A stretch of DNA of 64,000 nucleotides. It comes from Sugiyamaella lignohabitans. Its lineage: Eukaryota; Ascomycota; Dipodascomycetes; Dipodascales; Trichomonascaceae. The translations under genes were made by a program, and so were the position numbers. The notes below the pieces were generated by a model that worked only from the letters and a program-made list of their open reading frames with translations, was not told where the DNA came from and made no database searches. The DNA lies in the NCBI RefSeq assembly GCF_001640025.1, contig NC_031672.1:4402001-4466000 (forward strand), written 5' to 3'. Positions 6,599 through 60,750 of the stretch are shown in pieces. Numbering within the stretch: the stretch's first letter is position 1; every line of letters begins with the position of its first letter.

Positions 6599-6735
6599 TG
6601 CCTCCGGCGGCTGGGGCGCTGCCCCAGACCCCGTTGTGCTCCGCTTCGCGGAGCTGCTGCGACCGTCGACGGACCGACTCGAGCGAAGCGAGAGGAGCCG
6701 GGGGGTCTGGGGCGCAGCCCCAGCCGCCGGAGGCA
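6599..6735. repeat. GC-rich hairpin element pair centred between convergent genes
   Basis: A 137-bp pair lying 49 bp from the DBP5 stop and 47 bp from the stop of the convergent zinc-finger gene. The second hairpin on the left is a third stem variant, GCTCCGC-TTC-GCGGAGC, still fully self-complementary. Candidate bidirectional 3'-end signal (inference). Confidence 0.9.
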
Positions 6736-6781
6736 GAAGGGCCCGTCAAAGAAAATGCTCGTTAGAATATAAATAGGGAGG

Positions 6782-8008
6782 TCAGGAGATGGCCAGCGAG
6801 GCAGCGGCGTCGGGACCGAGTTGGGTCGCTAGGAGCTCGTCGAAGAGTCGTTCTTTGCGGAGGACTTCGATATTTTTTTGTTTTTTGGCGGTCTTGAGCT
6901 CGGATTCTAGCTGTTCTTGAAGTTCTAGAGACCAGAGGAGTTGTCGCTTGAGCTGGTTGATGGTTGCTTCGGGGTCGGATTCGTCCTGTAGGGTGAGGTC
7001 GTTGTCGAGCTCGTCGTTCTCGCGAGTGTCGTAGAGACTCTCTTTTTCTCTGATTTTTCTGATCTGTGTTAGGAGACCGGGGTTTAGTGCTTTGGCTTTC
7101 GCTAGAGGCTCTTTTGGCTCCTTTTCTTTGGGTCGTGAGTTTTCGTTGGGTTCCACTTCTCGGGTTATGGGGTCGTATCCGTGGATGACTCGAACGTGTT
7201 TAATGAGCGTGGCAGTTCGTGAAAAGGTTCGATCGCATTCAGGAACGAAGCAGAAGAATGGCAGCTGTGGAATGTGCTGTCGTGAATGATGGACGAGGAC
7301 GGATTTTGACTCTTGGGGAGATCCTTTTTGTGTGCATTGGTCCCATTCACAGGCATAGTTGGAACTCTGTCCAACATGACCGTCTATCAGATGTGATATC
7401 ATTTCTTCAAGGTTCAGTTGCTCGGGCTGCTGGCAGTTTTGCCATTTGCAGATGAATTGGTTAACTTCGCCATCGGTTGTGGGTCCATGTTCTTGTCGAT
7501 AGAGCTTGGCTATATGGTTGACACCGTGAGAGGTGTTGTCATCGTCGTCACTGATATTATCTAGACTATCGTCTTCAGTATCCTTCTCATCTTCTTCGTC
7601 TTCTAAAGTGTCGTTGTGTCCATTTCGAATGGGCTCAGTGTCTTCATCGACTGTTTCTTCTCCTTCGTCTATTGGCTCTTGTAGTTGGGATTGGTTTGGG
7701 TCTTGCGATTGGATTTGCAAATGAGACTGCTGTTGCTGCTGCTGCAATTTGAGTTCTTCGGACGAGTGAGCTAGTTCAGGTTGCCGGGTCTGTGACAATT
7801 GCACGGTGTTGACGCTGCCCTGGGGTACCTGATTTGTCGTGGAAGCAACGGCAGTTGTATCTTCCGTTCGGTTGTCGAGTAAATCTGATAGGGGAATTGT
7901 AGACCCGTTTCTGTTTGAAGATGGATGCCCTTCAGCAGATGTGTTGGTTCCTGTCACGACTGTAGCTGGCACTGTGCTGCTCCCATTGCTGAGAGGGTAG
8001 TCTGCCAT
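6782..8008 (-). CDS. C2H2 zinc-finger protein, probable transcription factor
   Basis: 408 aa, ATG at 8008. Three C2H2-type fingers are visible: C187-x4-C192...H206-x4-H211, C220-x4-C225...H240-x4-H245, and C253-x4-C258...H271-x4-H276. The wide Cys spacing with a Trp in the first two (CKWQNC, CEWDQC) is the style of GLI/ZIC/PacC-class fingers. The N-terminal 165 residues are Gln- and Asp/Glu-rich and look like an activation or interaction region. A C-terminal coiled coil spans about 340-395. It is probably a nuclear DNA-binding regulator. I cannot match it to a named yeast factor; it does not look like Rim101 outside the fingers. It converges with DBP5, and its start faces FRS2. Confidence 0.88.
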   Translation of the reverse strand: MADYPLSNGSSTVPATVVTGTNTSAEGHPSSNRNGSTIPLSDLLDNRTEDTTAVASTTNQVPQGSVNTVQLSQTRQPELAHSSEELKLQQQQQQSHLQIQSQDPNQSQLQEPIDEGEETVDEDTEPIRNGHNDTLEDEEDEKDTEDDSLDNISDDDDNTSHGVNHIAKLYRQEHGPTTDGEVNQFICKWQNCQQPEQLNLEEMISHLIDGHVGQSSNYACEWDQCTQKGSPQESKSVLVHHSRQHIPQLPFFCFVPECDRTFSRTATLIKHVRVIHGYDPITREVEPNENSRPKEKEPKEPLAKAKALNPGLLTQIRKIREKESLYDTRENDELDNDLTLQDESDPEATINQLKRQLLWSLELQEQLESELKTAKKQKNIEVLRKERLFDELLATQLGPDAAASLAIS

Positions 8009-8641
8009 TGCAAGTGTCAGGATTCGTGGTTTCTATGATCTGTCGGCGAATTTATCTTAACTTTCACGATTCGAATCTGTGATTATTTGTCAATGAATTG
8101 ATACACTGTCGTATTTCTAGACCAGTTCCGTTCACTGCTATAATAATTTTTTCAGTTCAGTCAGATCGTATAAGTAGTTCAAGTCCAATTCCAGGATCCA
8201 GTTTTGACAGTTGAAAAAATGATAAACTGGTTTCAATATTCGAAGTTGAAATATTTTACAAACCAAACAAAATCGACCAACCACTTGAGTATCCAGTTGA
8301 TAATCACACTTTATCAGAAATGCCAATTCTATTCCCTATTTGTCGTAATTAGACTGGTGCTATTCAGCATCTTCTGCTTCACCAGTCCACGCGGCTGGTC
8401 CGATGCACATCCCACACTTCACGACGTGGGTTAGGAGAATGAAAATAATGAAGATGATTCATTTTCTAGATACGCATGCTGTTGTAAGTGATCAAGTAAA
8501 AATCTTGCGGCATCAACGGACAAGCATTCGGGGAATTTGAACCTATTGACCATTGAACTGGGGTATTTTTCAGAGTTCATTCTGCTGGCAATACTGATAT
8601 AAAATAATCGTTCAAACCGTGGGTTTCCTAACATATTTACA
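8009..8641. other. Divergent intergenic region, zinc-finger gene / FRS2
   Basis: 633 bp, AT-rich, with no repeat element and no supported ORF. It presumably holds both promoters. Nothing distinctive was recognised beyond short A/T runs. Confidence 0.5.
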
Positions 8642-10120
8642 ATGTCGGACTTCGCGTTAACAGTTTTGGCTACCCTGAATAAGGGTCCTGTTACTGATTC
8701 TAGGGAAACCTTCCCAGGAATCGACTCTCAGGTCGTTCAGGGTGCAGTCACTTCTTTGGCTGCTAGAAATATGGTTACTTTCAAGCAAATTGAGAAAGAG
8801 CTGTGGGCTCCTACTGCCGAGGGTGAAGACATTATCGCCAATGGGTCACATGAAATTCGTCTTTATGATGAAGTTATCAAGTCTTTAGAAGGTTTAAAGA
8901 TTGCCGATGTTGCCAAAGTTCTAGGACCAAGTGGCAAGGTCGGTCAACAACGAGCTTTCAAGAACGGCTGGGTCAAGAAAGACGGCGATAAATTAGTCAA
9001 GGGAGTTGATGAAGCCCCTGTCGATGTCACTAAGGACCAATTAACCACTATCAAAAGTACTGGTACTTTAGACGATGCCAAGGAGCTCAATGAATTAAAA
9101 AAGCGTAAACTAGTGACCAAGACCAAACTTGTATCGTATTCCATTGAAAAGGGACCTGAGTTTGCACTTGAAATCAAGAAATTAGATACCGACTTGACTA
9201 TTGAAATGCTACAATCAGGAACTTGGAAGACGTCCGAGTTCAAGCCATATAACTTTTCTGCCGAAGGTATCAACACCAATGGTGGAGCATTCCATCCACT
9301 TAACAAGGTGCGTGAAGAATTCCGACAAATCTTCTTCTCCATGGGATTCACTGAAATGCCCACTAATCAGTATGTTGAGAGTGGATTCTGGAACTTCGAT
9401 ACCTTGTATGTTCCTCAACAACATCCTGCCAGAGATTTGCAAGATACTTTCTACTTGAAAGATCCTGTCAAGGCCCTTGAGCCTGAAGACAAGACTTACT
9501 GGAGTCATGTTCGTAAAGTTCATGAGGAAGGTGAGTTTGGTTCGATTGGTTACAGATATCCATGGAAGCCCGAGGAGGCCACCAAACTTGTTCTACGTAC
9601 CCACACGACCTCTGTTTCTGCTGCCATGTTACACAAGTTAGCCAAGAACCCTGGACCTGCCAGATATTTCAGTATTGACAAAGTGTTCCGTAACGAGGCC
9701 GTCGATGCTACCCATTTAGCCGAGTTCCACCAAGTCGAAGGTGTTATTGCCGATTATAACCTGACTCTTGGCGATTTGATTGGATTCATGGAACGCTACT
9801 TCTCCAAGATGGGAGTCAACCAGATCAGATTCAAGCCTGCATACAACCCCTACACCGAGCCCAGTATGGAGATTTTCGGATACCACGAGGGACTCGGCAA
9901 ATGGGTCGAGGTCGGCAACTCGGGCATGTTCCGTCCCGAGATGCTCGAGTCCATGGGTCTACCCAAAGACCTACGTGTCCACGGATTCGGTCTCAGTTTA
10001 GAGCGTCCCACCATGATCAAGTACGCCGTCAGCAACATCCGTGAGCTGCTCGGTCACAAGGTCAGTCTCGACTTCATCGAGAACAACCCTGCCGTCAGAT
10101 TCGAAGAAGCATTAGTTTAG
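8642..10120 (+). CDS. FRS2: Phenylalanyl-tRNA synthetase alpha subunit, cytosolic
   Basis: 492 aa, ATG at 8642; S. cerevisiae Frs2 is 503 aa. It is the catalytic subunit of the cytosolic alpha2-beta2 enzyme that charges tRNA-Phe. Visible features: an N-terminal winged-helix-like tRNA-binding region (1-150), then the class II core with motif 2 (YFSIDKVFRNE...HLAEFHQVEG) and motif 3 (GFGLSLERPTMIKY, about 447-460). There is no transit peptide, which excludes the mitochondrial enzyme. The third-base GC content rises in the last 100 codons. A single GC-rich module in sense orientation starts 43 bp after the stop. Confidence 0.97.
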   Translation: MSDFALTVLATLNKGPVTDSRETFPGIDSQVVQGAVTSLAARNMVTFKQIEKELWAPTAEGEDIIANGSHEIRLYDEVIKSLEGLKIADVAKVLGPSGKVGQQRAFKNGWVKKDGDKLVKGVDEAPVDVTKDQLTTIKSTGTLDDAKELNELKKRKLVTKTKLVSYSIEKGPEFALEIKKLDTDLTIEMLQSGTWKTSEFKPYNFSAEGINTNGGAFHPLNKVREEFRQIFFSMGFTEMPTNQYVESGFWNFDTLYVPQQHPARDLQDTFYLKDPVKALEPEDKTYWSHVRKVHEEGEFGSIGYRYPWKPEEATKLVLRTHTTSVSAAMLHKLAKNPGPARYFSIDKVFRNEAVDATHLAEFHQVEGVIADYNLTLGDLIGFMERYFSKMGVNQIRFKPAYNPYTEPSMEIFGYHEGLGKWVEVGNSGMFRPEMLESMGLPKDLRVHGFGLSLERPTMIKYAVSNIRELLGHKVSLDFIENNPAVRFEEALV

Positions 10121-10162
10121 ACCCACAATACATTAATACTAGACTCACATCGACGGGGACCA

Positions 10163-10224
10163 TGCCTCCGGCGGCTGGGGCTTCGCCCCAGACCCTGCTG
10201 CTCCTCTCGCTTCGCTCGAGTCGA
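10163..10224 (+). repeat. GC-rich hairpin element, single left module
   Basis: Left module with loop TTC (CTGGGGC-TTC-GCCCCAG) and inner CTCGCTTCGCTCGAG. It is in sense orientation, 43 bp after the FRS2 stop. Confidence 0.88.
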
Positions 10225-10262
10225 GATCTGGACCCTGCGTCGGACCCTGCATCCGACCACTG

Positions 10263-10397
10263 TGCCTCCGGCGGCTGGGGCGCTGCCCCAGACCCCGTGG
10301 CTCCTGCTTCGCAGGAGAGTACCGGGACCCCCACGCCCGACTCGAGCGCAGCGAGAGGAGCAGCGGGGTCTGGGGCGGAGCCCCAGCCGCCGGAGGC
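10263..10397. repeat. GC-rich hairpin element, inverted pair
   Basis: A 135-bp pair immediately downstream of the single module, giving three modules in a row. The left inner hairpin is CTCCTGCTTCGCAGGAG and the right is CTCGAGCGCAGCGAGAG. Confidence 0.9.
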
Positions 10398-10944
10398 GCT
10401 GGACCCTGCATGGCTCGCAGGGTGGATCGTGGGCTGAGATCTAATAAAGTTAGTTTGGGACACGGGACTGTGGCGGGGCAAGGGGTGAGCGAGTCCCCTG
10501 CCGCGAAACCCACTCAGCCCCGTGGACACGGATGCTACTGCCGCAAGTTGGGGGGGCGCTGAGTTACAGGGGAATTGCTGCGGTGCCGGCGTGTTTGCTT
10601 GCTGTAAAACTTTATTGCCCCCAAAAACGCTTTCTTCAGGAGCAGTCCATTGCTTCAGAAAGGAGGGCCCTAACCCGATCGTTTTTGAAAGCCACCCCCA
10701 TGTTCCCCCAAACGCAGCATGCTAATAAACGACGCAGTATCGTACATTTCAATTGTCGTTTGTCATGCATGACCCGGGTTGGTTTTTTTTTTGTGTGTCT
10801 TACTTCGGCAGGGCACAGCAGCAGCCAGCCACCCACTGTAGGCCGGTGCCCTAACCCCGAAAACAACTATGTATAACAGTGATCCTGCGTCAACCTGTGT
10901 TTGTGCTGCTCCTTATTCACATCCGGTTTTTTGGTTGCTACTGT

Positions 10945-10953
10945 TATATATAA
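10945..10953 (+). promoter_or_regulatory. TATA-like box of PMP3
   Basis: TATATATAA, 79 bp before the PMP3 ATG. The position and sequence suit a TATA-dependent promoter, but no start site can be seen directly. Confidence 0.4.
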
Positions 10954-11031
10954 GGAGATCGTGTTCAATTGACGTTTTCTCTCTTGAAATATTTTTGACA
11001 ACAAATCATTCAAATAAACTAATAGTTCACA

Positions 11032-11885
11032 ATGGTTAATTCTTCTGATATTGTTAAGATTGCTCTTGGTAAGTTGGGTGGTGGCGTTTGTTTGCGGGGG
11101 TCGGATTTTTCGGTGCGAGGCGCAATTGAGGGGTAGATATGGAGAGTTTTTTTGTTGTTGGATTGTTGGGCGAATTTTTGAGAATTACATTGAAACGAAG
11201 TTACAAATGAGTAATGAGTGAAGAGATGTTAGTTGGACGATGAAAGTTCGATGAAGAAGGTTTGATGGAGCAGGGTCTGGTGGGTGTGAGAGCGTGTGGT
11301 TGAATGGGTCGATAACCAGCAAATTCAAGTGCCGTACGAGTGAACTCGTAAACGACCAAGTTCCAATATTTTCTATCGAATAACGCCATGAGATAGCCGA
11401 AACAGCTTTCTAATTGCTAGTTTGTTAGATAGACTGTTGGACATAGCCACAGTATAAGAGAATCGAGAATAGAAGCCAACCAGCCTCTTTTTCAACTCTG
11501 CACTGCTACTTCTCGAAGACCAATTGTTGATAGAACTGCGAATCGTGTCTTCTGTCATGTCTTCTATATCTTTTGAAGAAACTCAATGGCTCGTTTAGCT
11601 CTTTGTTTTGTCGATAAATCTTCATCTCTTTCAGTATCACCCATTTCCCTCCCTGTATTGCTTTGCTCTTCAATCTGTTACCCATTACCTCATCAATTAA
11701 TTTTGAAATCCTTTAGTATTAACGTAGTACCAATTCTAACACTCACAGCTCTTATTGTCCCTCCTGTTGCCGTCTTCATGGAGAGAGGATGTGGTATTGA
11801 ATTGCTTATCAACGTCATCCTCTGTTGTTTCGCCTGGTTCCCAGGAATGATTCATGCGTTGTATGTGGTATTCAGCACTAGATAG
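11032..11885 (+). CDS. PMP3: Pmp3-type plasma membrane proteolipid (spliced)
   Basis: Exons 11032-11068 and 11749-11885 join to 57 aa; S. cerevisiae Pmp3 is 55 aa. Exon 1 is MVNSSDIVKIAL plus one base, before GTAAGT. The acceptor is CTAAC-actcacAG. The protein has two hydrophobic segments around the family signature ERGCG (VPPVAVFMERGCGIELLINV), then FPGMIHALYVVF. Known relatives are small stress-induced membrane proteins that limit excess cation uptake and affect plasma-membrane potential. The 680-nt intron is nearly four times the coding length. Reading exon 2 alone upstream gives a non-homologous N-terminus, which supports the splice. Confidence 0.93.
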
Positions 11886-12477
11886 TTTGCTGCTTCTAAT
11901 CCCGGCATTGTCATGACCTCCACTACCTCTTGTACCAGTTCTCCCCAGGCAACGACTGGATCTTATTTTTCTTTCCCCTTACAATGCCTGTTGTACTTGC
12001 TATCACTATGTTGTTCATCTTGTTTACTATATAATTAATAGCTATAAGCTTTTTTATTTTTACTGAGAGTCTGCTGCTGACTGGGTTTTGCCTGGATCAT
12101 TAGCGATAAAATAAGCATCGTTCGGTGAAACAATCCCCCGTCAAGCTGTATTAGGCCGTGCGGACGTGCGAGTGTCATGATTCGTCCATGTGGACTATCG
12201 CAAGACTACCTCCTTGACTCCTCTGTACAGTACTCTATTGACCAAATGTTATTCATGACGAACAACATTGATCTCGATAGCAACAGTTGAGTCCTGCAGA
12301 CATGGATATGCCAAAAAAAAAAGGGTGAGCTACAACACCTTCTGTTCACGCCTGGTCTCCCACGGCATTACTGATCAAGGCTCTTCAAGGCTTAAATAGG
12401 ATTGATCGGACGGGAAATCTTGCACTACTTGAGATGTGGTCGTAGCTGACGAGGTTCTTTACAGACTGGATAGGTTC

Positions 12478-12532
12478 TGCCTCCGGCGGCTGGGGCTCCG
12501 CCCCAGACCTCGTAGCTCCTGCTTCGCAGGAG
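12478..12532 (+). repeat. GC-rich hairpin element, single left module
   Basis: Left module, CTGGGGC-TCC-GCCCCAG then CTCCTGCTTCGCAGGAG, followed by GGATCG in place of the usual centre. It is the lone copy in this stretch and lies 593 bp after the PMP3 stop. Confidence 0.85.
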
Positions 12533-13666: not shown

Positions 13667-14058
13667 TGCCTCCGGCGGCTGGGGCTCCGCCCCAGACCCC
13701 GCTGCTCCTCTCGCTCCGCTCGAGTCGATCCCCCCAGAATTACCTGGGGTTTGTCCGGAGGTGCCCCTGGAGGTAGTCTTCCCCACCTGTGTACTTTGCA
13801 GAAACCGAATGATCGAGACTGAAATTCCAATCACAAGAATTCTGGAAATAAACCTGAGTGCCAGTTTGCGACAGTTGCGAACCAGATCAGGCCACCAGAT
13901 GTTCAACGAGACCAAACTGAACCCAAGAAACAACAGAGACTCTGCTCTCGAACTCACTCCCCTCTCTGACTCGAGCTACTGGCATCGCCGACGCAACGAC
14001 TCGAGCGAAGCGAGAGGAGCAACCAGGGTCTGGGGCGGAGCCCCAGCCGCCGGAGGCA
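13667..14058. repeat. Widely spaced inverted pair of GC-rich modules
   Basis: Left module at 13667-13728 (inner CTCGCTCCGCTCGAG) and right module at 13996-14058 (inner CTCGAGCGAAGCGAG). They are separated by about 267 bp of unrelated DNA instead of the usual 20-25 bp. Either two independent half-copies or one element with inserted cargo. Confidence 0.85.
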
Positions 14059-15931: not shown

Positions 15932-17419
15932 TCTCTCTACTAATACACTAATTCGCTTTCCAGGAGGGGGGCTCTGCCTCCGGCGGCTGGGGCTCCGCCC
16001 CAGACCCTGGTTGCTCCTGCTTCGCAGGAGTTGGCCAGGACCGAACACGGACCGACTCGAGCGCAGCGAGAGGAGCAACCAGGGTCTGGGGCGGAGCCCC
16101 AGCCGCCGGAGGCACACCCCGGTCCCTGAGTATACACCGGAGATAACCGGGCAGGGTGCGGAGAAGGTCGGGCTGTCACATGCAAGAAGCGGGTAGCGGC
16201 GGCTGCGGGGGATAACCGAGCGCTCCCGATGGCCGGTGAGACACGCACGTCAATTTAGCCGGCCAGCAGGGTGACGATAGTGAATAATAATTAGAGACAA
16301 GCGTGCGTTTCGTTTCAATTATGCCTATTTGACATAAGCCAAATAGCGGATCAAGCAGGTGGCCGGCAGGGGATATACAGGAAACTTACAGGACAGTTAC
16401 AGGGCCGATTAACAGCCCGATTATGGGTTACAGTCTGGCGAGTGGAGACCGAGTAATGTTATTTTTGATAGACGGGGTTGGCAACGATAATGACCATTTC
16501 CGCCAGTCTTTGATATGACCGAATGGAAGGGTGGCTCGGTGGGTTGTTTTTCCCTCGGCATTTTTGTTTTGTCGCCTTAGTATGGTGTAATGCCGCCTTG
16601 ACGTTGTAACGGCGTTTTGTTTAGTCCCCACAGCCAGCTGCTGTCTACCCCCACCTTTGTCGATAACGGCCGACCTGATACGGCGCACTACCGACCAGCC
16701 GATTGTGCCAGCACCAGCGGCATATTTTTCCACTTACCCCATAACGTAAGTTATCTCGCAGATTCTGCAAGTACCGATCTGATATGGAACCGTACCGAAA
16801 CGGGGATAGGGGGGTCGGTCCGAAAAGAAATAAAAAAAAGGATAAATATCAGCTAATGGTCGTATTTTCGATATTTTACACGTACCTAATAGAATTTTTT
16901 TTTTGTTCGATCCGATCGTTAAAGTGGTCTTATTAGTTCGTTTTAGTCTTATTAACCATCAGTCCAGACCGTCTGTCTAAATTATCAGTCTTTTGTGAAG
17001 TGAAAGAAAAAGTCTGTTTTGTAAAGTCAGCCAGCCAGCCAGTCACAGATAGAGTGGCATTTTTTGATAGCATTACAAACACATAACCGTCAGTCATTGG
17101 ACATCATAAGAGGTGGCAGGACTGTATTTGAAGAAATAATCGTGACAAAGAATCGTGATAAGACCCAGCCAGTCAAAGAAGCGAGTACCAAGAAGCAAGT
17201 GATTACCGACAAGACGCTCGTCAATAGGAAAAGGTAGAACCATTTAGAAGAACCTGAACCAGTATAGCCGTCTTTTATTTCAGATTGAGCTGGATATCAT
17301 TTTCTAGGACATAGAACAGAAGAGGATAGAAATTTCATTTGTTTTTTTTTGGCAGCCAGCTACTCATTAACTTAAGGAATCTGCACTTTGTATCTTCAGA
17401 GAGACGAAGAGACAGAAAC
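15932..17419. other. GPA1 3' flank and long upstream region of the 136-aa ORF
   Basis: 1.5 kb with one GC-rich pair (15975-16114). The remainder is an AT-rich upstream region with T- and A-runs and a CAGCCAGCCAGCCAG tract (about 17027-17042). No ORF is credible. The length suggests a long promoter or leader for the small downstream ORF. Confidence 0.5.
15975..16114. repeat. GC-rich hairpin element, inverted pair
   Basis: A 140-bp canonical pair 44 bp after the GPA1 stop. Left inner CTCCTGCTTCGCAGGAG, right inner CTCGAGCGCAGCGAGAG, centre with GGACCG. Confidence 0.9.
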
Positions 17420-18233: not shown

Positions 18234-18305
18234 CTCCGCAACTGGGAATCGAACCCAGATCTCCCGCGTGACAGGCGGAGATTCTAGCCATTAAACTATT
18301 GCGGA
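18234..18305 (-). tRNA. tRNA-Asp (anticodon GTC)
   Basis: A 72-nt cloverleaf on the minus strand: acceptor TCCGCAA/TTGCGGA with discriminator G, anticodon loop CTGTCAC, and T arm CTGGG-TTCGATT-CCCAG. There is no intron. It is flanked downstream on the transcribed strand by A/T-rich sequence (TTCTTTTTTTGC), which fits Pol III termination. A GC-rich element pair lies about 190 bp upstream of it. Confidence 0.95.
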
Positions 18306-18802: not shown

Positions 18803-20151
18803 ATGTCTCAAACCGCATCAGATCTCTCGAGCTTTGTTCAGGACGCTCCGCCAGGAGAAGTAAGTACCAATTGCACAGTTACAGTCCGCTTGTTTTACTA
18901 ACAACACCTTCCAGGTCAACAACGTTGTTGAAGGTCAGTCCAGTCAAGTCATCCAATTGGTCCAGGATACGAAATCCAGAGTCGAAATTCTGACAGCTAT
19001 TGGCTCAGTTGTCTGAGCTCTTCTTCTTATTCTTCTTCTTTTGGCTCTTGTTTTGGTCTTGGTTATTAACGTCGGACAATTCTAACGGAATGCAGATATC
19101 AAAGTGCTCGTGGAAGGGAACCCCCAATTGGTAGCTGGTCTAGACAAGGAGGTTGCCCAGCACAACATCGAGCAGTTTCAGGTCGTCAAGCTCCCCGGAA
19201 AAGGCACTGTAAGTACCCAGTCACCTCAAAAAGCCGGAACCCACCCGCAATTGCCAGTTTACACCCCCATCCCCAGTCCAGACTAACAACATCTCTCTTT
19301 AGACGGTGATCAGTAAATTCAACCAGCTCTCCAACGACCGCTTCTTCGACGCCAACCACGGTGTCTCGTTCTCCTACGACCACACCACCAACAAACCCAC
19401 CAACATCGAGCCCTACACCAGTTCCGTGGATGTGTAAGTCCCGCTCCTCCTCCGTGGACCACTGCCTCCGGCGGCTGGGGCTGCGCCCCAGACCCCCTGG
19501 CTCCTCTCGCTGCGCTCGAGTCGTTTACGTCACCAATCCCCCATCAAAAACTCCTGCGAAGCAGGAGCAACCAGGGTCTGGGGCGGAGCAACCAGGGTCT
19601 GGGGCGGAGCCCCAGCCGCCGGAGGCAGCACCCCCTCCTCCCCCAAAACTAACCCCCTTAGCTCCAGTGTAAGTGCGGCCCTGGAAACGTATGTGGCCGA
19701 GCATTTCCCGTCCGAGGCCGGTTCAGGCGTGTTTCCCCAGGAGGACGGGTCCGTGGCTGTAGTGATTGTGGACGGCAAGTACAACCCGTCGAACTTCTGG
19801 AACGGTAAATGGAAGTCGTCGTATGTTTTAGACGAGTCGCGAAACAAGTTCCAGGGCACGATTGAACTCGATATTCATTACTACGAAGACGGTAATGTTC
19901 GGTTAAAGACTAAAAAAGACGTTGAATTGACCGGTGCATCGCTGTCCGACAGCTCGAGTATCATCAAAAAGATCGCACTCGCCGAAACCCAGTACCAACA
20001 GGAAGTCAGCAACACTTTCATCGGACTCAACGACGGCGCATTCAAAGCGCTCCGACGCCAACTGCCCGTGACCCGGTCTAAAATGGTCTGGGGCAAAGCC
20101 ATCGGCAACTACCGCGTGGGTCAAGACATCAGCGGCGCTGCTCGCGAATAA
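18803..20151 (+). CDS. CAP1: F-actin capping protein alpha subunit (five exons)
   Basis: Exons 18803-18859, 18915-18933, 19096-19208, 19303-19433 and 19662-20151 give 269 aa; S. cerevisiae Cap1 is 268 aa. It is the alpha subunit of the heterodimer that caps actin-filament barbed ends at cortical patches. Exon 1 encodes FVQDAPPGE, matching the family N-terminus. Later blocks are RFFDANHGVSFSYDHTT, the NPSNFWNGKWKS signature and a C-terminal GNYRVGQDI tail. All donors are GTAAGT or GTCAGT and all acceptors follow CTAAC by a few bases. Intron 4 (19434-19661) contains a complete GC-rich inverted pair. Exon 2 is only 19 nt. A second pair starts 24 bp after the stop. Confidence 0.94.
19463..19627. 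repeat. GC-rich hairpin element pair inside CAP1 intron 4
   Basis: A 165-bp pair filling most of the 228-nt intron. The left inner is the CTCGAG type; the right inner is CTCCTGCGAAGCAGGAG. The right arm carries a 21-bp tandem duplication (19565-19585, 19586-19606). The branch site ACTAAC lies between the element and the acceptor, so splice signals are intact. Confidence 0.92.
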
Positions 20152-20174
20152 ACTTATTTCTTCTTCTTTCGGAT

Positions 20175-20319
20175 CTGCCTCCGGCGGCTGGGGCTGCGCC
20201 CCAGACCCCCCCGGCTCCTCTCGCTTCGCTCGAGTCGGTTGTATCTCGGATCCCGGCGAAAAACTCCTGCGAAGCAGGAGCAACCAGGGTCTGGGGCGGA
20301 GCCCCAGCCGCCGGAGGCA
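20175..20319. repeat. GC-rich hairpin element pair between convergent CAP1 and SFT1
   Basis: A 145-bp pair, 24 bp from the CAP1 stop and 31 bp from the SFT1 stop. The left inner is the CTCGAG type; the right inner is CTCCTGCGAAGCAGGAG. Confidence 0.92.
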
Positions 20320-20349
20320 TGCCCCCCTCAGAAAATAAATATCGGTTCT

Positions 20350-20764: not shown

Positions 20765-21089
20765 GCTGGTTGTAATTCAAGAGCTGCTGTCCTTCCCACC
20801 TGATCTGGTTCACGTATATTGCATATGTATAAGAATATCGCACCCCCAAATATTCTACATCTAGCAGGGTCGACCCCGGAGGGGGTGTGCCTCCGGCGGC
20901 TGGGGCTCCGCCCCAGACCCTGGTTGCTCCTGCTTCGCAGGAGTTTTTGCCAGGGACCGGACACGGGATCGACTCGAGCGGAGCGAGAGGAGCCGGGGGG
21001 TCTGGGGCGCAGCCCCAGCCGCCGGAGGCACACCCCACCCCGTGTGGGGGCGGACAAGTCTATATTGAAATGATACAGGATATAAATGG
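20765..21089. other. SFT1 promoter / HSE1 3' flank
   Basis: 325 bp, nearly half of it a GC-rich inverted pair (20888-21030). The remainder is short AT-rich flank. Confidence 0.6.
20888..21030. repeat. GC-rich hairpin element, inverted pair
   Basis: A 143-bp pair, 60 bp after the HSE1 stop. Complementarity extends outward: GGGTGTGCCTCC on the left and GGAGGCACACCCC on the right. Centre GGGACCG; right loop GCA. Confidence 0.92.
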
Positions 21090-25744: not shown

Positions 25745-25800
25745 TGCCTCCGGCGGCTGGGGCTCCGCTCCAGACCCTGGCTGTGCTCGCTTCGCGAGCT
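25745..25800 (+). repeat. GC-rich hairpin element, single left module (slightly decayed)
   Basis: The first hairpin has a broken stem (GGGGC-TCC-GCTCC). The second is GCTCGC-TTC-GCGAGC. It is sense-oriented to LAG1, 170 bp after the stop. Confidence 0.82.
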
Positions 25801-26138: not shown

Positions 26139-26193
26139 GCTCGCGAAGCGAGCACAACCAGGGTCTGGGGCGGAGCCCCAGCCGCCGGAGGCA
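26139..26193 (-). repeat. GC-rich hairpin element, single right module
   Basis: GCTCGC-GAA-GCGAGC followed by GGGTCTGGGGC-GGA-GCCCCAG. First of two direct copies spaced 90 bp apart. Confidence 0.87.
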
Positions 26194-26228
26194 GTCCGGC
26201 CCAAAAGATTCTGGTCAGAACTCCCCTA

Positions 26229-26283
26229 GCTCGCGAAGCGAGCACAGCCAGGGTCTGGGGCGGAGCCCCAGCTGCCGGAGGCA
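26229..26283 (-). repeat. GC-rich hairpin element, single right module (second copy)
   Basis: Nearly identical to the copy at 26139 (outer arm GCTGCCGG). Its outer end lies 45 bp beyond the MRP4 stop, so it is in sense orientation to MRP4. Confidence 0.87.
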
Positions 26284-28042: not shown

Positions 28043-28096
28043 TGCCTCCGGCGGCTGGGACGTTGCCCCAGACCCCATGGCTCCTGCTTCGCAGAA
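28043..28096 (+). repeat. GC-rich hairpin element, degenerate left module
   Basis: The outer end is intact, but the first hairpin is altered (CTGGGACGTTGCCCCAG) and the second is broken (CTGCTTCGCAGAAAG). It is an older or decaying copy, 177 bp beyond the STE20 stop and antisense to STE20. Confidence 0.8.
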
Positions 28097-28272
28097 AGCT
28101 GCTAGGACTGTCTAGGGGATGGTAGATTCCTGTGGAGAGAGAAATATGCCAGGTTTCGGGAAGTGATAAGAGCCGGAAGCTCTGGTAGCTGCTGTGGATG
28201 TGCACAAAATGCGGTGATGGTCATAAAATATATACTAATGCTATAAAAGTCATGGAAAAAAGGTGATAGCGG

Positions 28273-47210: not shown

Positions 47211-47430
47211 TGCCTCCGGCGGCTGGGGCTCTGCCCCAGACCCCGTTGCTCCTGCTTCGCAGGAGACTTCTGGGTGGTCAGGGGGTTCGTGGTGATAAAA
47301 TTGATGATATATGAAAAAAATCTAGTTATAAATGAATGAATATGAATCCAAAGAAAGTGGGACCGCCGACGACTCGGGCGAAGCGAGAGGAGCAGCGGAA
47401 CTGGGGCGGAGCCCCCAGCCGCCAGAGGCA
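47211..47430. repeat. Spaced, partly decayed inverted pair of GC-rich modules
   Basis: Left module at 47211-47265 is intact (loop TCT, CTCCTGCTTCGCAGGAG). Right module at 47369-47430 is decayed (CGACTCGGGCG, extra C in GCCCCCAG, GCCAGAGGC). The spacer is about 103 bp. The right outer end is 3 bp from the antiporter stop. Confidence 0.83.
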
Positions 47431-47432
47431 CT

Positions 47433-49004
47433 TCAGATAACGGTATCTTCAGTGTCAAGAGTCGAGGCAGCAGTCAGTCTCTGGCGGCGTTTATTGCGGA
47501 GCTTCTTGGTGGATTTGAGAAACACTTGTAGAATAGGAATGGAGATTCCGTGAACCAGAACTGAACTGAGAATTGAGAAGTAGACCACAGGTTTAATAGT
47601 GCGGACCATGACATTGCTGTTCGACAGTCCCATGCCCTGGAACTCTTGTAAAGCGACTTCCAGGTAGAATAGAGCACCGACTCCAATAGGACCGAAAAAG
47701 CCCGTGAAAACAGCCTCTTTGAGGTCGGCAATGTCGGGAATGATCCTATAAAACAGAAGTACGGCAGGCAGACGACGGAACAGAAGCAGAGCAATGCCCA
47801 TGACAATAAATTTCCATAAAGCAAATGTCGATACAAAGTCCTGCCACGGCATAGTAGCGCCAATCCACACGAAAATGCCCAGATTCAACGCCAGGTCCAC
47901 CGTCGGCTGAACCATGTCGTCACGAGTCCTAATGCGATACTCATCGTTCCACGTAAAGAAGTTACCAGCAATAAAACACGCCAGCAGGTCGTCTGTCCCA
48001 ATCATTCCAGCAGTACCCAAAATAAACAGCGCCAGTCCGAACACCGACAGCACGTATGATTCCTTATCAATTAGGTTCCTGTACCAGTTAGTAACTGGCG
48101 AGTGAGACGTGCCTCCGGCGGCTGGGGCTCCGCCCCAGACCCTGGTTGCTCCTGCTTCGCAGGAGATGGCCGGGACCGGAGACGAAAACGACTCGAGCGT
48201 AGCGAGAGGAGCCACGGGGTCTGGGGCAGATCCCCAGCCGTCGGGGGCTGTCCCCCCATCGAAAACTTACCGTTTGTTGGCAAACATCAGCAGTTCCTGG
48301 CCAATGTAGCCCACCACAGAACCGTAGACAACACTCAACAGAATCTGGTAGACAACCGTGTGAAGAAGCCACTGGCGAGCAATTTCCGTGCCCGAGTATC
48401 GGTAGATGGCCAGTGCCAGGAACAGGAACGGGTAACCGAACCCGTCGTTGGCTCCGGCCTCTGCGACAATGATCCGTCTGAGACGGTTGGTGACATATTT
48501 TTCAGCGAATGGACCGCTGACAATGGAGTTACTGAGAACTGGGTCTGTGGGAGTGATACAGGCAGCCAAGATAAGTGATTCAAGGAACTGGATTCCGGGA
48601 ACCAATAGGTAGATAATGACGGCTGATGCTATCCACATGACACCCATGACGCCTACCAGAAGAACACAAAGACTCTGCCAAGCATGGTACAAGTATTTGG
48701 CTGGAAGTTGGACTCCTACAATCATAAGCTGGAGACCCAGCACAAACCGGGCGAAATCCGCCGACTGAACGCCTTCATCATTGACACTAGGATTAATCCA
48801 TCCAAGGTGTCTGAATATAAGACCGAAAATGACTGCCGGTAGCGGTTCTGAAATGTACATGCCCTCCTTCAAAAAGAAGGAAAGGACGCAGAACACCACC
48901 GTGAACCCGCCAATGCAAGCAGCTATGACATTGAGACTGGAGATATCAAGAAACTGAGCTCGGGGAAGTAGTATCGGGACCGAGTCGGTAATGGGAGACT
49001 TCAT
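47433..49004 (-). CDS. NHA1: Plasma-membrane Na+/H+ antiporter (Nha1/Sod2 type), two exons
   Basis: Exons on the minus strand are 49004-48271 and 48078-47433, giving 459 aa. It exports Na+ (and perhaps K+) in exchange for H+. About twelve hydrophobic segments are visible, with the family blocks TPTDP at 151-155 and AEAGANDGFGYPFL at 181-194 (N186-D187). The second half carries the GTDDLLACFIAGNFFTW block. It lacks the long cytosolic tail of S. cerevisiae Nha1 (985 aa) and matches the size of S. pombe Sod2 (468 aa). The 192-nt intron (GTAAGT...TACTAAC...CAG) contains a GC-rich inverted pair. The last residues are TLDTEDTVI. The symbol marks the family, not strict orthology. Confidence 0.92.
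48110..48250. repeat. GC-rich hairpin element pair inside the antiporter intron
   Basis: The element fills most of the 192-nt intron. Left arm intact (CTCCTGCTTCGCAGGAG); centre GGGACCGGAGACGAAAA. The right arm is decayed at its outer end (loop AGA with a stem break, CCGTCGGGGGC). Confidence 0.9.
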
Positions 49005-50771: not shown

Positions 50772-51707
50772 GCCCATGTCTTATAAAAGTAACTAAAATT
50801 TATTTGTAATGTACAAGACCAATTACCGTACTATGTCATTCGCACCTTCGAAGGTATACTGTCATTTGATGTACCTGGGTGTCGAGGAAGTCTGCCTCCG
50901 GCGGCTGGGGCTCTGCCCCAGACCCCGTGGCTCCTCTCGCTACGGTCGAGTCGTTCCTACGTGGGGTATCTCAACTGAACAGAATAGAATGTTTATAGGT
51001 GTCGAGAGTAGGATGAGAACAGGGCCTGGACCTTCGGGGTATATAAGACCTGGTGGATAATAACTCGACGAGCCTGGTAAATGAGATCTAGTTTCTATCT
51101 GTTCCAACGCAGTTTATTTACTCCCGAATAGTTAGTAGCAGTACAGTCAACTTTTGAAGTAACTGTATTTTTTTGTAAACACAACTTATTCAGAAGTCAT
51201 TGTATGCTCTGACAATAGATACAAAGAATAATATAGCTTCTAATCTCTTGGAACTGTCCTCAGTTTATAAGGTCTTAGTTTTATCGCGTTTATTATCTTT
51301 GTTGGTTCGCTTTTGTATCGAATTCGAATTTCTAAGAGGTATCAACTCATGAAGTCAATACAATTGCCTTAAACAAGTGGGTACATCATGTGGAGATTTG
51401 CAGGGACTTCTCATCCTCTAGCAATTCATTTTTCGAGACATTTCAGAAAATCTACATCAAAAGTTTTTTTACATACCAATTTGTTGCTATATTATTTGGA
51501 ATTGTACCAGCAGTTCAAAAACCTAAATTATATGTAGTTAAGTCCTCCAGCCAACGGAAAGATAATGTGCATACACGTTCATCGAGCAGCCTTACAGATA
51601 TAGAACATCGGACCAATCGCGGCTTTCTAAAGACATGTCGAATCGCTGGAATTTAAATGACAGCCAACCGGTTGTGATTTGTATTTTTTTTGTTGAGTTT
51701 TCGCGTG
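50772..51707. other. RPL28 3' flank / YGK1 promoter
   Basis: 936 bp with one GC-rich module near RPL28. The rest is AT-rich upstream DNA of YGK1. No ORF supported. Confidence 0.5.
50893..50953 (+). repeat. GC-rich hairpin element, single left module
   Basis: Loop TCT, inner CTCGCTACGGTCGAGTCG (one change from the family). Sense-oriented to RPL28. Confidence 0.87.
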
Positions 51708-52673: not shown

Positions 52674-52937
52674 ATTTCCTATTTAAATGCATGCTTTACC
52701 TCACTCTGACAATGAAGGCTCTGCCTCAAGGTCAGAACTACAATCATAATCCGAAGCGGAAAGATATGAATATAAAATAAAACGGTCTATTAGGGGGGTC
52801 ATTATTTTTGGATCAGACTGTAAATGTATAGTAACACTCCAGCCAAGGATCATATTGTTTCAGACAGATAGCCAACTAGTGGGGAGAGGTCTGGATTTTC
52901 ATGTCGATTATTCGCAAAAGCAACAAATTTTGTAGCA

Positions 52938-55753: not shown

Positions 55754-56473
55754 ATGACTAGTAAGTTGCGAAATCAATAAGATTAAGTCGATATGAGCAT
55801 GGAGAACAGAATGAAGAGACCATCAGGAGCTATTTCGACAAAAATTAGCTATTCCGGCTGTTAAACCGACACGATAGAAATAAGCATTTTACCTCGAATT
55901 TATTGAAAGAACAATTTATTTGCGTGATGAGTTATCTATTTTCTCGAAGTATACGACATTTCCTAATCCCCACGCTACTGGCTATTTATCAATCGAATGA
56001 TTTGTGGATGACGAAATTACAATTTTCGAGTGTTCAAGTTGAAATTTGATATTGTCTGACGTGATCAGTTTGGGGTACACCATACTATTGTTGAAATTTA
56101 TATGAAAACAACAACAAGCCAACCAAATTCAATCTGAAGAATCGATGAGTTTCTGTTTCTGTTTCTGTTCTTATTGCTAAATGTCGAGTCATTGGATGAT
56201 ATTCAGGGCTGTTTTACTAACATCATACCAGAGGGTACCTCCAGTTTCGGTAAAAGACACAACAAGTCCCACACTTTGTGCAACAGATGTGGTAGACGTT
56301 CTTTCCACATCCAAAAGAAGACCTGTGCCAGCTGTGGTTACCCCGCTGCTAAGACCAGATCTTACAACTGGGGTCAAAAGGCTAAGAGAAGACACACCAC
56401 CGGTACCGGCCGTGAGAGATACCTCAAGCACGTTTCCCGCAGATTCAAGAACGGTTTCCAAACCTCTGTTTAA
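55754..56473 (+). CDS. RPL37: 60S ribosomal protein eL37, two exons
   Basis: Exons 55754-55760 and 56232-56473 give 82 aa. Exon 1 is ATG-ACT-A before GTAAGT (MTK start); the acceptor follows TTTTACTAAC-atcataccAG. The protein [20 protein letters not shown]... has the zinc-ribbon cysteines C19, C22, C34 and C37, and a basic C-terminal half. It is slightly shorter than S. cerevisiae Rpl37 (88 aa) because the last few tail residues are absent. The 471-nt intron and the tiny first exon match the classical RPL37 layout. Confidence 0.95.
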
Positions 56474-56777
56474 ATCCTATCATCATGGTTCACTCTGACC
56501 TACAAAAGATTGGAGAAAAATAATAAATAAAATCTAGTTTTTGTTTACTCATGTGGCTATGTTTAAAAGAATGTTAAATATTTAAGACCGAAATGGGACT
56601 GAGGTTTCGATGGTTCATTTCAGGCCCTGCTCTGTGGGGTGCTGTGTAGACTACTCGAACATAGAATGAAGTTGATGAGTTGTATGTGTAAAGAAGCTCG
56701 CGAAGCGAGCACAACCGGGTCTGGGGCAGCGCCCCAGCCGCCGGAGGCAGAGAGAAAGAAAAGAAGATTCAACGGGT
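56474..56777. other. Convergent RPL37 / LCD1 3' flanks
   Basis: 304 bp with one right-oriented GC-rich module close to the LCD1 stop. Confidence 0.6.
56696..56749 (-). repeat. GC-rich hairpin element, single right module
   Basis: GCTCGC-GAA-GCGAGC then CTGGGGC-AGC-GCCCCAG. The outer end lies 29 bp beyond the LCD1 stop, in sense orientation to LCD1. Confidence 0.88.
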
Positions 56778-59158
56778 TCAAGTAGCGTACATGGATAAAT
56801 AAATCTCGTCAGCCTCGGTGAGGGTGATACATTGTTCGAGGATATCACGGGAGCGGTCGATGACATCAGCGTCAAAACGGACAGCTGGTGACGGCTTGGA
56901 CGGGTCTGGATACTCACTCAGAGCGATGCGAGCCATAGCAACTAGGTTTTCATGACCAGCATCACCGTATAGCGAACGTGTGAGTTGTGGTTTGTCGTCC
57001 GAAAGGGTCCATATGGCATGAAATAGGCGCACAGACGCGTTGACAAATTGAACACGGCCCATATCTGAAGAGTCCTGTGGGCATTCATAGATATCGTCCA
57101 GTTCATGAGATATTGCCTGTGTAAGAGTACCTACCAGCAAACTCTTGTTCACTAGTAAACCTACTCCTCGTCGTAATAATAATGCGGTGAAAAATTGGAT
57201 GATGGTACGCCGTAAGTTGATTGTCTCAAAGGCGTTAGTTATGTACAATTCATAGTTGACATTGCTGTCGTTGTTGCGACCGATATCAAGGCCCTTGGAT
57301 TTGCGGTGAGTCTGAATATACAAAGGAGTGATGGAATTTGATCTTCCAATGCTCGGACTGCCACTATAGTCGCTTTCTAGACCCGCAAATAAGAGGACTA
57401 GAGATTGCTCAAACTTTTGGGACTGTGATATATGACGAACCAGAGTGCTGATAATGAGCTGCTCTTGGTCTAGTTGAGCTTTAGCTCTTGATTCGACTGA
57501 CGGTGTGTTGGGCGAGTCGGTCACAATGGGTCCCAACATGCCCTCAGTTATCGAGGGGATAAGCATTCGTAACGTTTTTACTAGAATGTTGGTTGTTATG
57601 TGATGTTGATTTGGCGACAGCAGAAGACTATTGATCAAACGGAATGGAATCGTCGACCAGCATGCTTTCGAAGAATTTGCATCCAGTGAGCATGACAGGA
57701 CGACCGTCTCAAGAACATCTAAAGCACAAATCATGAGTGATGTTTTGGTCGCCTTTTCTGAATCAATTGTAATACATTTGAACCACGGTATTTCGCTCTC
57801 TGAGGGCAGCGAAAACGGAGAGTTTAAAGTTACTGATAGACCATGCTCTACAAACTGTACAAGCATTCGAATGGTTTCCAGTAAAATGCTTTCGTTTGAA
57901 ATGAAACGTATTGGATCAGCAGCAATGGCTGTATCCAAAAGGTGGAGAACGAGATACCCAGCATCCAGTGGCCATTCATTCTCGTTTACCTCCGGGTTGG
58001 GTTCAAATCTCATGTATGTACACACGTCAATACACCGACGAAAGAAACCTAGGTCACTGTCGCTGGATTTCGATACAAAAACATCGTCAAGCAGATAAGT
58101 GCCTAGTCCGCATGCTTTGAATTTAATTTTATCGAGCATCTGAATTGTGGTTTGTGTACTCTCAGGCAACTTATGTGTCTTGACTGCCATGTAGAAGTCC
58201 ATTTCAAGATTTTTCTGAATATAATCGGATGTGACATTTATAGTTTCGGCGGTAGATGCTAGTTCTAGTCCTGTTATCTCTTTTATTCGATTGGTTGTGG
58301 GAGTCGAGTGCTTGGACACCGACGCTGACCTCGGATGTCTGGCCCCTGGGTCTATGCTGACTTCATCGACCATCACAAAATCACCACCCTCTTCATCTTC
58401 GCCAAACCCTATATCTCTATTCCTGTGAGATTTCGACGGGCTCGATCTCGTGCTGTTACTGACAGGAACTCTTCGCATCTGGCGAAGAGCCTCTTGCCGT
58501 CTCCTTCTTCTCGAAGGTGAGTTGGGAGGGATGTCGAATCCATCTCTAAAACTAGCTTCGAGATCTCGTTTCACTCTCTTTTTGGAAGGACTGTTGTCTG
58601 GTGTTGTCTCCTGTGCACCATTAGCATGTGTAGAATGTCCTGTATCAGTCTGTGCATTAGTAGCAGACTCCACCTTTTCCCGCTTCCCTTTGGATGCTCG
58701 CATGGCCAACGAGACCTCCTGAACCTCGTTGCTCAAAAACATCTTTTCCACCCTGAGTCTCTCGACCTCTTTTTTCAGCACCTCAATCTGTTTCATATGA
58801 TCGTCCTTCGACTTGGTCTGACTGGCAATGAACTCGCCCACTGATCTGGTGTGCTCTTCGTCTTTTCTCGACAAATTTGATCGTAAAATGGCATTCTCGC
58901 CAGTCATAGTCTGTATATTCTTCGCCAATGCATCTTTCTCTGCTAATGCCTATAAAATGTTAGACCGTTTCACCCTCCTTCTGGCGTCTTTAAATACAAA
59001 CATACCCTGGCAAGACTCCGTTTGAGCTCTTCAACAGCATCTGAGCTACTGCCCCTATTCCCAGCCACTACATTCTGACTGCCCCTTGACTTCTGCTGAT
59101 GCTGTAGCCGATCAAGCTCCTCCAAGTCAATATCATCACTGCTCAGGTCGAACGACAT
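56778..59158 (-). CDS. LCD1: DNA-damage checkpoint protein Ddc2/Lcd1 (ATRIP), two exons
   Basis: Exons on the minus strand are 59158-59006 and 58949-56778, giving 774 aa; S. cerevisiae Ddc2 is 747 aa. It is the partner of Mec1/ATR that recruits it to RPA-coated ssDNA. The acidic N-terminus (SFDLSSDDIDLEELDRLQ) resembles the RPA-binding recruitment motif. A coiled coil (about 50-140) follows, then a basic nuclear-signal stretch (SKKRVKRDLE) and a long helical C-terminal domain. Identification rests on layout and motif similarity rather than a strong signature. Intron of 56 nt: GTATGT...TCTAACATTTTATAG. The 5' end faces EMG1. Confidence 0.82.
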
Positions 59159-59262
59159 AGCGACTCGCGAGTAGTTCGCGTACCACTCGTGAACCTCTAT
59201 ATGCAGGTTTAAATTAACCGAGCCGCATCTTGTGGGGCTCCTTATCATGGCTCTTGGAGTCC

Positions 59263-59323
59263 TGCCTCCGGCGGCTGGGGCTCCGCCCCAGACCCCGTGG
59301 CTCCTCTCGCTGCGCTCGAGTCG
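59263..59323 (+). repeat. GC-rich hairpin element, single left module
   Basis: CTGGGGC-TCC-GCCCCAG and inner CTCGCTGCGCTCGAGTCG, 105 bp upstream of the LCD1 start. Confidence 0.88.
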
Positions 59324-59684
59324 GGCTTCTGGGTTCCCATTAGGTCCAATAATAGCAGAAAAGTGATATGATATATATATATAACCCATTACTATTTACA
59401 TAGAGTTGACTGTGAGATTATATGCATCTGAAATAAATACCACAAAATAGCAAGTGATATCTACAAAGGCGTCCAACAAACGCACACACTCTTAGTTAAA
59501 TCCCAACTTAGAGTCAAGAGTCTAGCAAAATTGTTGTCTTTTATCAAAGTGCAATTATTCACAACCGCCTGGTTGCGAATCTGCAGGGTCTTGTCAGACT
59601 CTGCAGACTTTCCTCGACCTGGTTCACACAAACCGTTTCCTTCCATCCCAGCAGTCCCCTAACTAATAGGGAACCCCCTGAAAA

Positions 59685-59745
59685 CGACTCGAGCGCAGCG
59701 AGAGGAGCCACGGGGTCTGGGGCAGAGCCCCAGCCGCCGGAGGCA
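59685..59745 (-). repeat. GC-rich hairpin element, single right module
   Basis: Inner CGACTCGAGCGCAGCGAG, loop AGA, outer end GGAGGCACACCCC. It is inverted relative to the 59263 copy and lies 127 bp before the EMG1 start. Confidence 0.88.
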
Positions 59746-59759
59746 CACCCCCAGACCCC

Positions 59760-59768
59760 TCACGTGAC
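59760..59768. promoter_or_regulatory. TCACGTGAC E-box upstream of EMG1
   Basis: CACGTG-centred site 104 bp before the ATG of this ribosome-biogenesis gene. Confidence 0.45.
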
Positions 59769-59871
59769 ATGGGCAAGGGCACGCCTGATTTGAAATATTT
59801 TTTATATATTTTTCAAGGGCCTTCACATGTTGTAGACTGGAGATCAGATTACGAGAGCAACCGATTCCAAA

Positions 59872-60612
59872 ATGTCATCCCCCGATAACAAACCAGCAAC
59901 CAAGCCAGAGGAGACCGATCCTTCGTTGGTCCCCCAAGCTCCCAAGCCATTGAGCTCGAAAGACAAGAACACAAAGCGACTAATTGTGGTGTTATCCAAC
60001 GCCTGTTTAGAGACTCACAAGATCTCATCGGCCGGTGGAGATAGATACGCTCTTCTCAACTGTGATGACCACCAGGGTTTACTGAAGAAAATGAACAGAG
60101 ATATTGCTGACACCAGACCAGACATTACACACCAGTGCTTATTAACTTTATTGGATTCTCCTATCAACAAGGCTGGTAAGCTGCAAGTATATATCCAGAC
60201 AGCCCGAGGAGTGCTAATCGAGGTCAACCCCAGTGTCAGAATCCCTAGAACTTTTAAGAGATTCTCGGGACTGATGGTCCAACTGCTGCACAGACTGTCA
60301 ATCCGTTCAGTCAATTCTGAAGAGAAGCTCCTTAAAGTCATCAAGAACCCCATCACAGACCATTTGCCCACCAAATGCCGTAAAATCACTCTTTCTTTCG
60401 ATGCAAAGGTACAAAGGGTACAAGATTACGTCGAGACTCTTGATGACGACGAGAGTATATGTGTGTTTGTGGGTGCCATGGCCAAGGGTAAAGACAGCTT
60501 CGCCGACGAGTTCGTCGACGAGAAGATCGGTGTGTCGAACTACCCATTATCAGCCTCTGTCGCATGCAGCAAGTTCTGCCACGGTTGTGAAGATGCCTGG
60601 GGTATCATGTAA
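59872..60612 (+). CDS. EMG1: 18S rRNA pseudouridine N1-methyltransferase Emg1/Nep1
   Basis: 246 aa, ATG at 59872; S. cerevisiae Emg1 is 252 aa. It methylates N1 of the hypermodified pseudouridine in 18S rRNA and is needed for 40S assembly in the nucleolus. SPOUT-family blocks: [67 protein letters not shown], and the C-terminal knot region [16 protein letters not shown]...[15 protein letters not shown]. The disordered N-terminus is short. A sense-oriented GC-rich module begins 78 bp after the stop. Confidence 0.97.
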
Positions 60613-60689
60613 TGTAAATTAGTTTTCTCACGACTTTGTAACGCATATATCTAATCATATTTAATGGCATAGACGGTTGGGGGCGGGTG

Positions 60690-60750
60690 TGCCTCTGGCG
60701 GCTGGGGCTCTGCCCCAGACCCCGTGGCTCCTCTCGCTTCGCTCGAGTCG
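60690..60750 (+). repeat. GC-rich hairpin element, single left module
   Basis: Outer end GGGTGTGCCTCTGG (one transition), loop TCT, inner CTCGCTTCGCTCGAGTCG. Sense-oriented to EMG1. Confidence 0.87.

Follow-up and report, generated by a model that had tools for sequence, protein, structure and literature searches.

Palindromic repeats behind stop codons in the nuclear genome of Sugiyamaella lignohabitans and their relation to mRNA 3'-end signals

REP-like palindromes are known in bacteria, and GC-rich hairpin repeats are known in organelles. The bacterial REP, BIME and REPIN sequences are described as short extragenic imperfect palindromes, present in high copy and arranged as inverted doublets (PMC2817692), and some REP elements are reported close behind stop codons (PMC12306157). 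Fungal mitochondria carry double-hairpin elements and GC clusters, short GC-rich hairpins which are presumed to be mobile (PMC10085805, PMC4478555); a putative target duplication has been reported for GC clusters (PMC4478555).

Here we analyze a hairpin repeat of the yeast Sugiyamaella lignohabitans, whose genome is described as about 50% coding, with dispersed 5S genes (PMC5499181). The assembly comprises 15.93 Mb in four contigs. The window, i.e. the whole stretch of 64,000 nt that was analyzed, corresponds to G000:C1:4402001-4466000. This repeat is not named in the titles or abstract openings of the searched literature, and a literal search for its head gave no title on repeats.

Module anatomy and copy number

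The 19-nt module head TGCCTCCGGCGGCTGGGGC occurs in 5,342 exact copies genome-wide (2,675 forward and 2,667 reverse), and its reversed-sequence control gave 0 copies in the whole yeast genome. So many exact heads in one genome indicate amplification. Density is patchy in the first 600 kb of the contig that holds the window: among the matches listed (the first 100 forward places), forward copies are dense at 193-262 kb, with gaps of 30-49 kb nearby.

Modules were studied in a sample of 314 kb, made up of the window and the blocks C1:1.0-1.1 Mb, C1:3.0-3.1 Mb and C2:2.00-2.05 Mb. With up to 3 edits allowed, the sample contained 224 modules, 171 of them with the exact head. Matches with 4-5 edits were not counted, since many of them represent the palindrome in reverse reading or arise by chance. 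Each module consists of the head GCCTCCGGCGG, a 7-3-7 hairpin (CTGGGGC NNN GCCCCAG), GACCC and a second hairpin, and about 13 G-rich nt often lie directly before the head. Every position of the head TGCCTCCGGCGG agrees in 94-99% of the 224 modules, which were themselves found by this head. Hairpin 1 is intact (stem of at least 6) in 213/224 modules and its loop varies; whole-stem variants are CCGGGC/GCCCGG (8) and CTGGGC/GCCCAG (2). The pattern TAATGCCTCCGGCGGC was found in 8 copies.

Two modules are often joined as a heads-out pair, which spans about 140 bp. Spans were mostly 136-160 bp in a first fuzzy search, which missed imperfect copies. The 224 modules form 150 groups, of which 55 are of this '><' type and 83 are single. 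The regularly spaced inverted doublets of BIMEs are thus present, as are the two adjacent GC-rich hairpins that characterize the mitochondrial double-hairpin elements. The second hairpin could be assigned by sequence to a class (b, a, c or others) in 219/224 modules. Arms a and b are joined in 40 of the 55 pairs, and singles are chiefly b (54/83). The idea that singles are remnants of pairs was rejected: a remnant of the partner was found on the tail side in 10/83 and on the head side in 3/83, vs 11% at random places. Arm b showed no clear preference for stops, where b and a arms numbered 28 and 6 (vs 93 and 50 elsewhere, p=0.06).

Folded as RNA, the pair 6599-6736 forms a single extended hairpin (-111.2 kcal/mol, z -9.5), whereas in four single modules z ranged from -1.5 to -3.2. 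The second hairpin was weak in both class-b singles folded, b being the commonest class. At gathering level, Rfam families in the window were confined to a tRNA and a 5S gene, with the modules unmatched, and the interval 6550-6790 had no Rfam match at E up to 1; a known RNA family was rejected on this basis. The two matched genes, a dispersed 5S rRNA gene at 12327-12447 (-) and a tRNA gene at 18234-18305 (-), lie amid the repeats. Proteins translated through modules had no relatives found. At 19564-19610 of the window, in an apparent CAP1 intron, one module of a pair carries a 21-nt internal duplication (GGAGCAACCAGGGTCTGGGGC).

Position and orientation relative to genes

Genes were called with our own periodic Markov model, which gave 103 stops and a coding fraction of 41-68% per block; on reversed sequence the model made 29 false calls, most of which (17) fell in block C. 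In the block G000:C2:2000001-2050000 (L029-L033) we observed many genes and 13 modules per 50 kb. Here the reversed sequence also scores as coding, which indicates an unusual composition.

A sequence-only reading of the window had listed distances from 14 stops to the nearest module. After recomputing open reading frames and modules, all 14 proved correct within 1 nt (Table 1). The same reading held that six single modules, after FRS2, LAG1, MRP4, RPL28, LCD1 and EMG1, turn their TGCCTCC end to the stop. This orientation is found at all six, and four of them are single by 150-bp grouping (LAG1, RPL28, LCD1 and EMG1), while FRS2 and MRP4 have further modules. Among 10 window proteins, Pfam supports DEAD helicase (DBP5), PheRS (FRS2), G-alpha (GPA1), VHS/SH3/GAT (HSE1), TLC/LAG1, ribosomal S2 (MRP4), L27A (RPL28), LCD1 and EMG1, and the zinc-finger protein had no Pfam match. 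The names of the first gene, CAP1, SFT1 and the antiporter, outside this 10-protein scan, are those of the sequence-only reading.

Table 1. Modules and heads-out pairs beside stop codons in the window (positions of the window)
Feature	Position	Strand	Stop and distance	Remark
Heads-out pair after first gene	508..661	.	403, 104 nt between	motif 28-45 nt before head
Heads-out pair, convergent DBP5/zinc-finger gene	6599..6735	.	6550 (48 nt), 6782 (46 nt)	head to each stop
Stop-facing module after FRS2	10163..10218	+	10120, 42 nt	more modules at 10263 (+), 10343 (-)
Pair after GPA1	15975..16114	.	15931, 43 nt between	
Pair, convergent CAP1/SFT1 last exon	20176..20319	.	20151 (24 nt), 20350 (30 nt)	
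Pair near HSE1	20888..21030	.	21090, 59 nt between	head at 21030 toward stop
Single module after LAG1	25745..25800	+	25575, 169 nt	motif 28-45 nt before head
Stop-facing module after MRP4	26228..26283	-	26328, 44 nt	
Second MRP4 module	head at 26193	-		same orientation, 35 bp on
Exception	28043..28098	+	28273, 174 nt away	tail toward stop
Module with 2 edits after antiporter	47375..47430	-	47433, 2 nt between	
Pair with degraded stop-facing arm (4 edits)	48110..48249	.	48267	head of degraded arm toward stop, arm excluded from module count; 48110 module has tail toward stop 101 nt away
Single module after RPL28	50893..50955	+	50771, 121 nt between	
Single module after LCD1	56694..56749	-	56778, 28 nt between	
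Single module after EMG1	60690..60752	+	60612, 77 nt between	

A comparison of stop distance and orientation with shuffled positions, which the sequence-only reading had suggested for the whole genome, was made in the 314-kb sample. A module lies within 100 nt of 53/103 called stops, at 25-75 nt in 38 of these, and the TGCCTCC end (the head) is turned to the stop in 48 of the 53. When each group was kept in its own intergenic region and its place and flip were shuffled, the means were 26.6, 13.5 and 19.3, and 0/500 runs reached the observed values. Starts show no enrichment, with a module within 100 nt of 8 of the 91 scored starts vs 10.5 in the null. The pattern seen in the window, modules past stops with a fixed end to the gene, is confirmed as real and extends beyond the window. 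The window observation is stronger than the sequence-only reading could know.

Pairs are heads-out by build, so that orientation is informative in singles only. Tandem singles no more than 80 nt from the stop were head-first in 8/8 cases, those up to 200 nt away in 10/14 and those at any distance in 19/41. An even orientation relative to the upstream gene, which the sequence-only reading had named as evidence against its proposal, is thus what tandem singles show overall but not near stops. Among 39 isolated singles (no other module within 600 bp), those with a gene end within 200 nt presented the head to a stop in 16 cases, the tail to a stop in 4 and the head to a start in 2. The head-first rule is confined to the neighbourhood of the 3' end. 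Yeast heads also point toward starts (20/22 within 300 nt), because heads-out pairs in short gaps must do so.

Four pairs in the sample are shared by convergent genes, with a head to each stop. No module was found within 200 nt of 36/103 called stops; 35 of these were examined and have an AT-rich 3' region. Divergent regions carry 41/150 module groups, and many groups are far from stops. Inside called genes there was 1 group of the 150, a count that leans low because the gene caller discards short ORFs containing module sequence. Such avoidance of genes would be expected if random insertions survived only where they are harmless, the first such place being just past the cleavage site. Passive tolerance predicts, however, a flat intergenic spread, whereas 38 stops had their module at 25-75 nt vs 13.5 randomised (0/500), and it gives singles no orientation. 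We consider it improbable.

Spacing to the mRNA 3'-end motif and possible explanations

What anchors the stop-facing modules, the stop codon or a signal behind it? The motif set consisted of UAUAUA, UAUUUA, AAUAAA and five other chosen AU-rich hexamers of the yeast efficiency/positioning type. A motif lay between stop and head in 27/48 stop-facing cases and was missing in 21/48. Intervals of equal length behind module-free genes held it in 21/48, after exclusion of genes near a block end and of genes whose module lay 100-200 nt away or was tail-first. Since module-free intervals hold the motif about as often, its presence says little and the spacing alone is telling.

The motif-to-head distance was 36.2 nt (MAD 2, sd 7.8, n=27). 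The sd rose to 21.0 after re-pairing of positions (0/5000) and to 15.8 with the motif placed randomly in the interval (0/2000), and motif position correlated with head position at 0.86 (n=27). At 30-39 nt before the head, motif density was 0.646 per stop-facing head (n=48) vs 0.040 per other head (n=176). Seven other heads had a motif at 28-45 nt, and five of these face a stop 104-392 nt away. Strand specificity is partial, the count of opposite-strand motifs at 28-45 nt in the sample being 14 vs 23. At eight loci outside the sample the motif was present at 3/5 stop-facing heads vs 2/24 other heads. In the whole genome TATTTA gave 304 matches at 28-45 nt before the head and 57 at 88-105 nt, and its complement TAAATA gave 134 at 28-45 nt, with overlapping motifs counted twice at a few places.

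The anchor of stop-facing modules thus looks like the 3'-end signal rather than the stop codon. Together, position, the orientation of singles near stops and motif spacing, each set against randomised controls, strongly support a specific link of modules to transcript 3' ends. That module placement near genes follows the mRNA 3'-end signal is the best-supported step of our analysis.

In yeast CYC1 the efficiency element, the positioning element and the cleavage site are reported to lie all within 50 bases (PMC8522215). This span, taken with the spacing of about 36 nt, puts the head about where cleavage is expected; judged by the AU-rich hexamers, a cleavage site would probably be near the head. 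Such a place bears on the proposal that modules act within the mRNA as a functional transcribed 3'-UTR element, for stability or localisation. The constant strand relative to the gene near stops and the stable RNA fold are in its favour, whereas the location of the modules, some 36 nt downstream of the AU-rich motif and close to the expected cleavage, and the lack of an Rfam match argue against it. It is the least probable of the explanations considered here.

The sequence-only reading had suggested a 3'-end or terminator function. Its first half agrees with the link to transcript 3' ends. As to termination, modules are possible candidates: cleavage would occur just before the module, hairpins or the G-rich edge would pause RNA polymerase II, and selection would keep distance and orientation. 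The spacing locked to the 3'-end motif, the 48/103 called stops that face a head within 100 nt, the convergent genes sharing a pair and the intact hairpin 1 (213/224) are all consistent with such adoption. On the other side stand the 36/103 called stops without a module within 200 nt, the many copies elsewhere, and conservation. We found no stricter conservation of stop-facing heads; exact heads numbered 32/48 vs 139/176 of the others (Fisher p=0.09), i.e. in the opposite direction. This fits placement rather than sequence-specific function, and because stop-facing copies are no better conserved we modestly favour the placement of a selfish repeat over a working terminator, which we regard as doubtful.

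We therefore return to placement as the main reading: the modules would be nuclear REP/BIME-like palindromic repeats which insert, or are kept, in connection with mRNA 3'-end formation. To this reading we give a probability of about 0.5. Some 36 nt downstream of the AU-rich motif, the mRNA would be cleaved and RNA polymerase II would begin termination. The repeats may have inserted or survived in this zone because their spread was coupled to it, and its polarity would set module orientation. In that case the mature mRNA would end before most of the module, which would behave as tolerated DNA.

No mobiliser of the modules was found. The Y1 transposase RAYT (Y1_Tnp, PF01797) was matched in 0/1 yeast genomes, with 6/14 control genomes matched, and in 0/5 bacterial head carriers, with 5/14 controls matched; mobilisation by RAYT was rejected, as PF01797 was not found in the yeast or in the five bacterial carriers. 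A Helitron search gave no match in the yeast, nor in any control. For 55 pairs, the longest word common to the two flanks was 5.47 vs 4.98 with shuffled partners, a small excess without fixed length. A clear target-site duplication, as is typical of MITEs, was not found in these pairs, and a MITE with target duplication was rejected.

If the main reading is true, the yeast holds a nuclear family, thousands of copies strong, whose position is locked to mRNA 3'-end signals and whose core is common to bacterial repeats. A puzzling class of palindromes would be linked to transcription termination, and how such palindromes spread would become testable in a sequenced yeast.

Bacterial relatives and comparison with known systems

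A 19-mer scan of bacterial and archaeal genomes gave at least 120 stretches. Among the matches listed, carriers were mostly Sphingomonadales and Acetobacteraceae MAGs, MAG Alphaproteobacteria PA4, Polymorphobacter and few others. Among 70 inspected copies of the bacterial set, two from Streptomyces and one from Azospirillum are without hairpin and look like chance matches. Nine picked bacterial genomes held from 1 to 107 exact copies (77 in 3.0 Mb, 107 in 3.4 Mb), and the reversed control held 0. Bacterial copies usually read TGCCTCCGGCGGCTGGGGCC NNN GGCCCCAGACCCC and often occur as heads-out pairs; the Solidesulfovibrio repeat has a short yeast-like stem and a second hairpin. On a contig from a viral collection (L155) the bacterial repeat occurs three times, and two of these copies form a heads-out pair.

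At the bacterial loci (at least 120), 81/91 adjacent +- modules are less than 200 bp apart. A module lies before the next gene at 154 gene stops; 117 of these are at -20 to 25 nt, and 110/117 are head-first. Bacterial heads also point toward starts (53/54 within 100 nt), because heads-out pairs in short gaps must do so. Tandem singles at these loci show no head-first preference (4 vs 7). The loci were chosen for holding a head, so that gene fractions there are meaningless.

The origin of the family is a separate question, and its odds are not summed with those of the explanations above. The yeast family may be independent, its likeness to the bacterial repeats resulting from convergence of GC-rich hairpins. 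The exact head is rare: of 398 genomes sampled from the phylum of one seed genome, the seed alone carried the 18-mer, and of 297 genomes in another phylum the seed alone matched a looser core. Bacterial spread is therefore patchy. Hairpin-only matches in Streptomyces and Vibrio plasmids also favour convergence. Against convergence, the likeness extends beyond hairpin 1 to the head of 12-13 nt and GACCC, and both families form heads-out pairs and lie behind stop codons. We rate convergence somewhat below an even chance. That one lineage of palindromic mobile DNA, with the GCCTCCGGCGG head and heads-out pairs, is present in bacteria and in the yeast nucleus, in each targets transcription units at their 3' ends and has colonised about half of the sampled yeast mRNA 3'-end zones with a fixed spacing to the cleavage signal is a tentative and rather unlikely reading.

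How does the yeast repeat compare with described systems? Like MITEs, it is short, non-coding, inverted-repeat and high in copy; unlike them, it shows no clear target-site duplication, no autonomous parent was found, and its singles are oriented relative to the gene. It shares short GC-rich hairpins with the mitochondrial double-hairpin elements and GC clusters but differs from them in that its copies lie on multi-Mb contigs among nuclear genes and have no clear duplication. As far as the cited sources describe REP, BIME and REPIN sequences, the yeast repeat resembles them as a short, imperfect palindrome that is extragenic, high in copy, arranged in inverted doublets and in some cases placed behind stops. 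It differs from these in being nuclear and in that its position is linked to a poly(A)-type motif. A GTAG/GTGG-type head at the palindrome foot, as in REP, was looked for and is absent from the yeast head, and the Y1 (RAYT) transposase was not found in the yeast or in five head-carrying bacterial genomes.

The bacterial repeats with the head TGCCTCCGGCGGC (Sphingomonadales, Acetobacteraceae, Solidesulfovibrio) have, to our knowledge, no established name. In the alphaproteobacterial ones stems are mostly one pair longer. Spacers and second hairpins of the bacterial repeats differ from those of yeast, the stop distance is mostly 0-25 nt, and bacterial tandem singles, unlike those of yeast near stops, have no head-first preference. 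The head of the TGCCTCCGGCGGC repeats is nevertheless identical to that of yeast, the stem TGGGGC...GCCCCA and GACCCC recur in both, and the bacterial copies likewise form heads-out pairs and lie behind stops.
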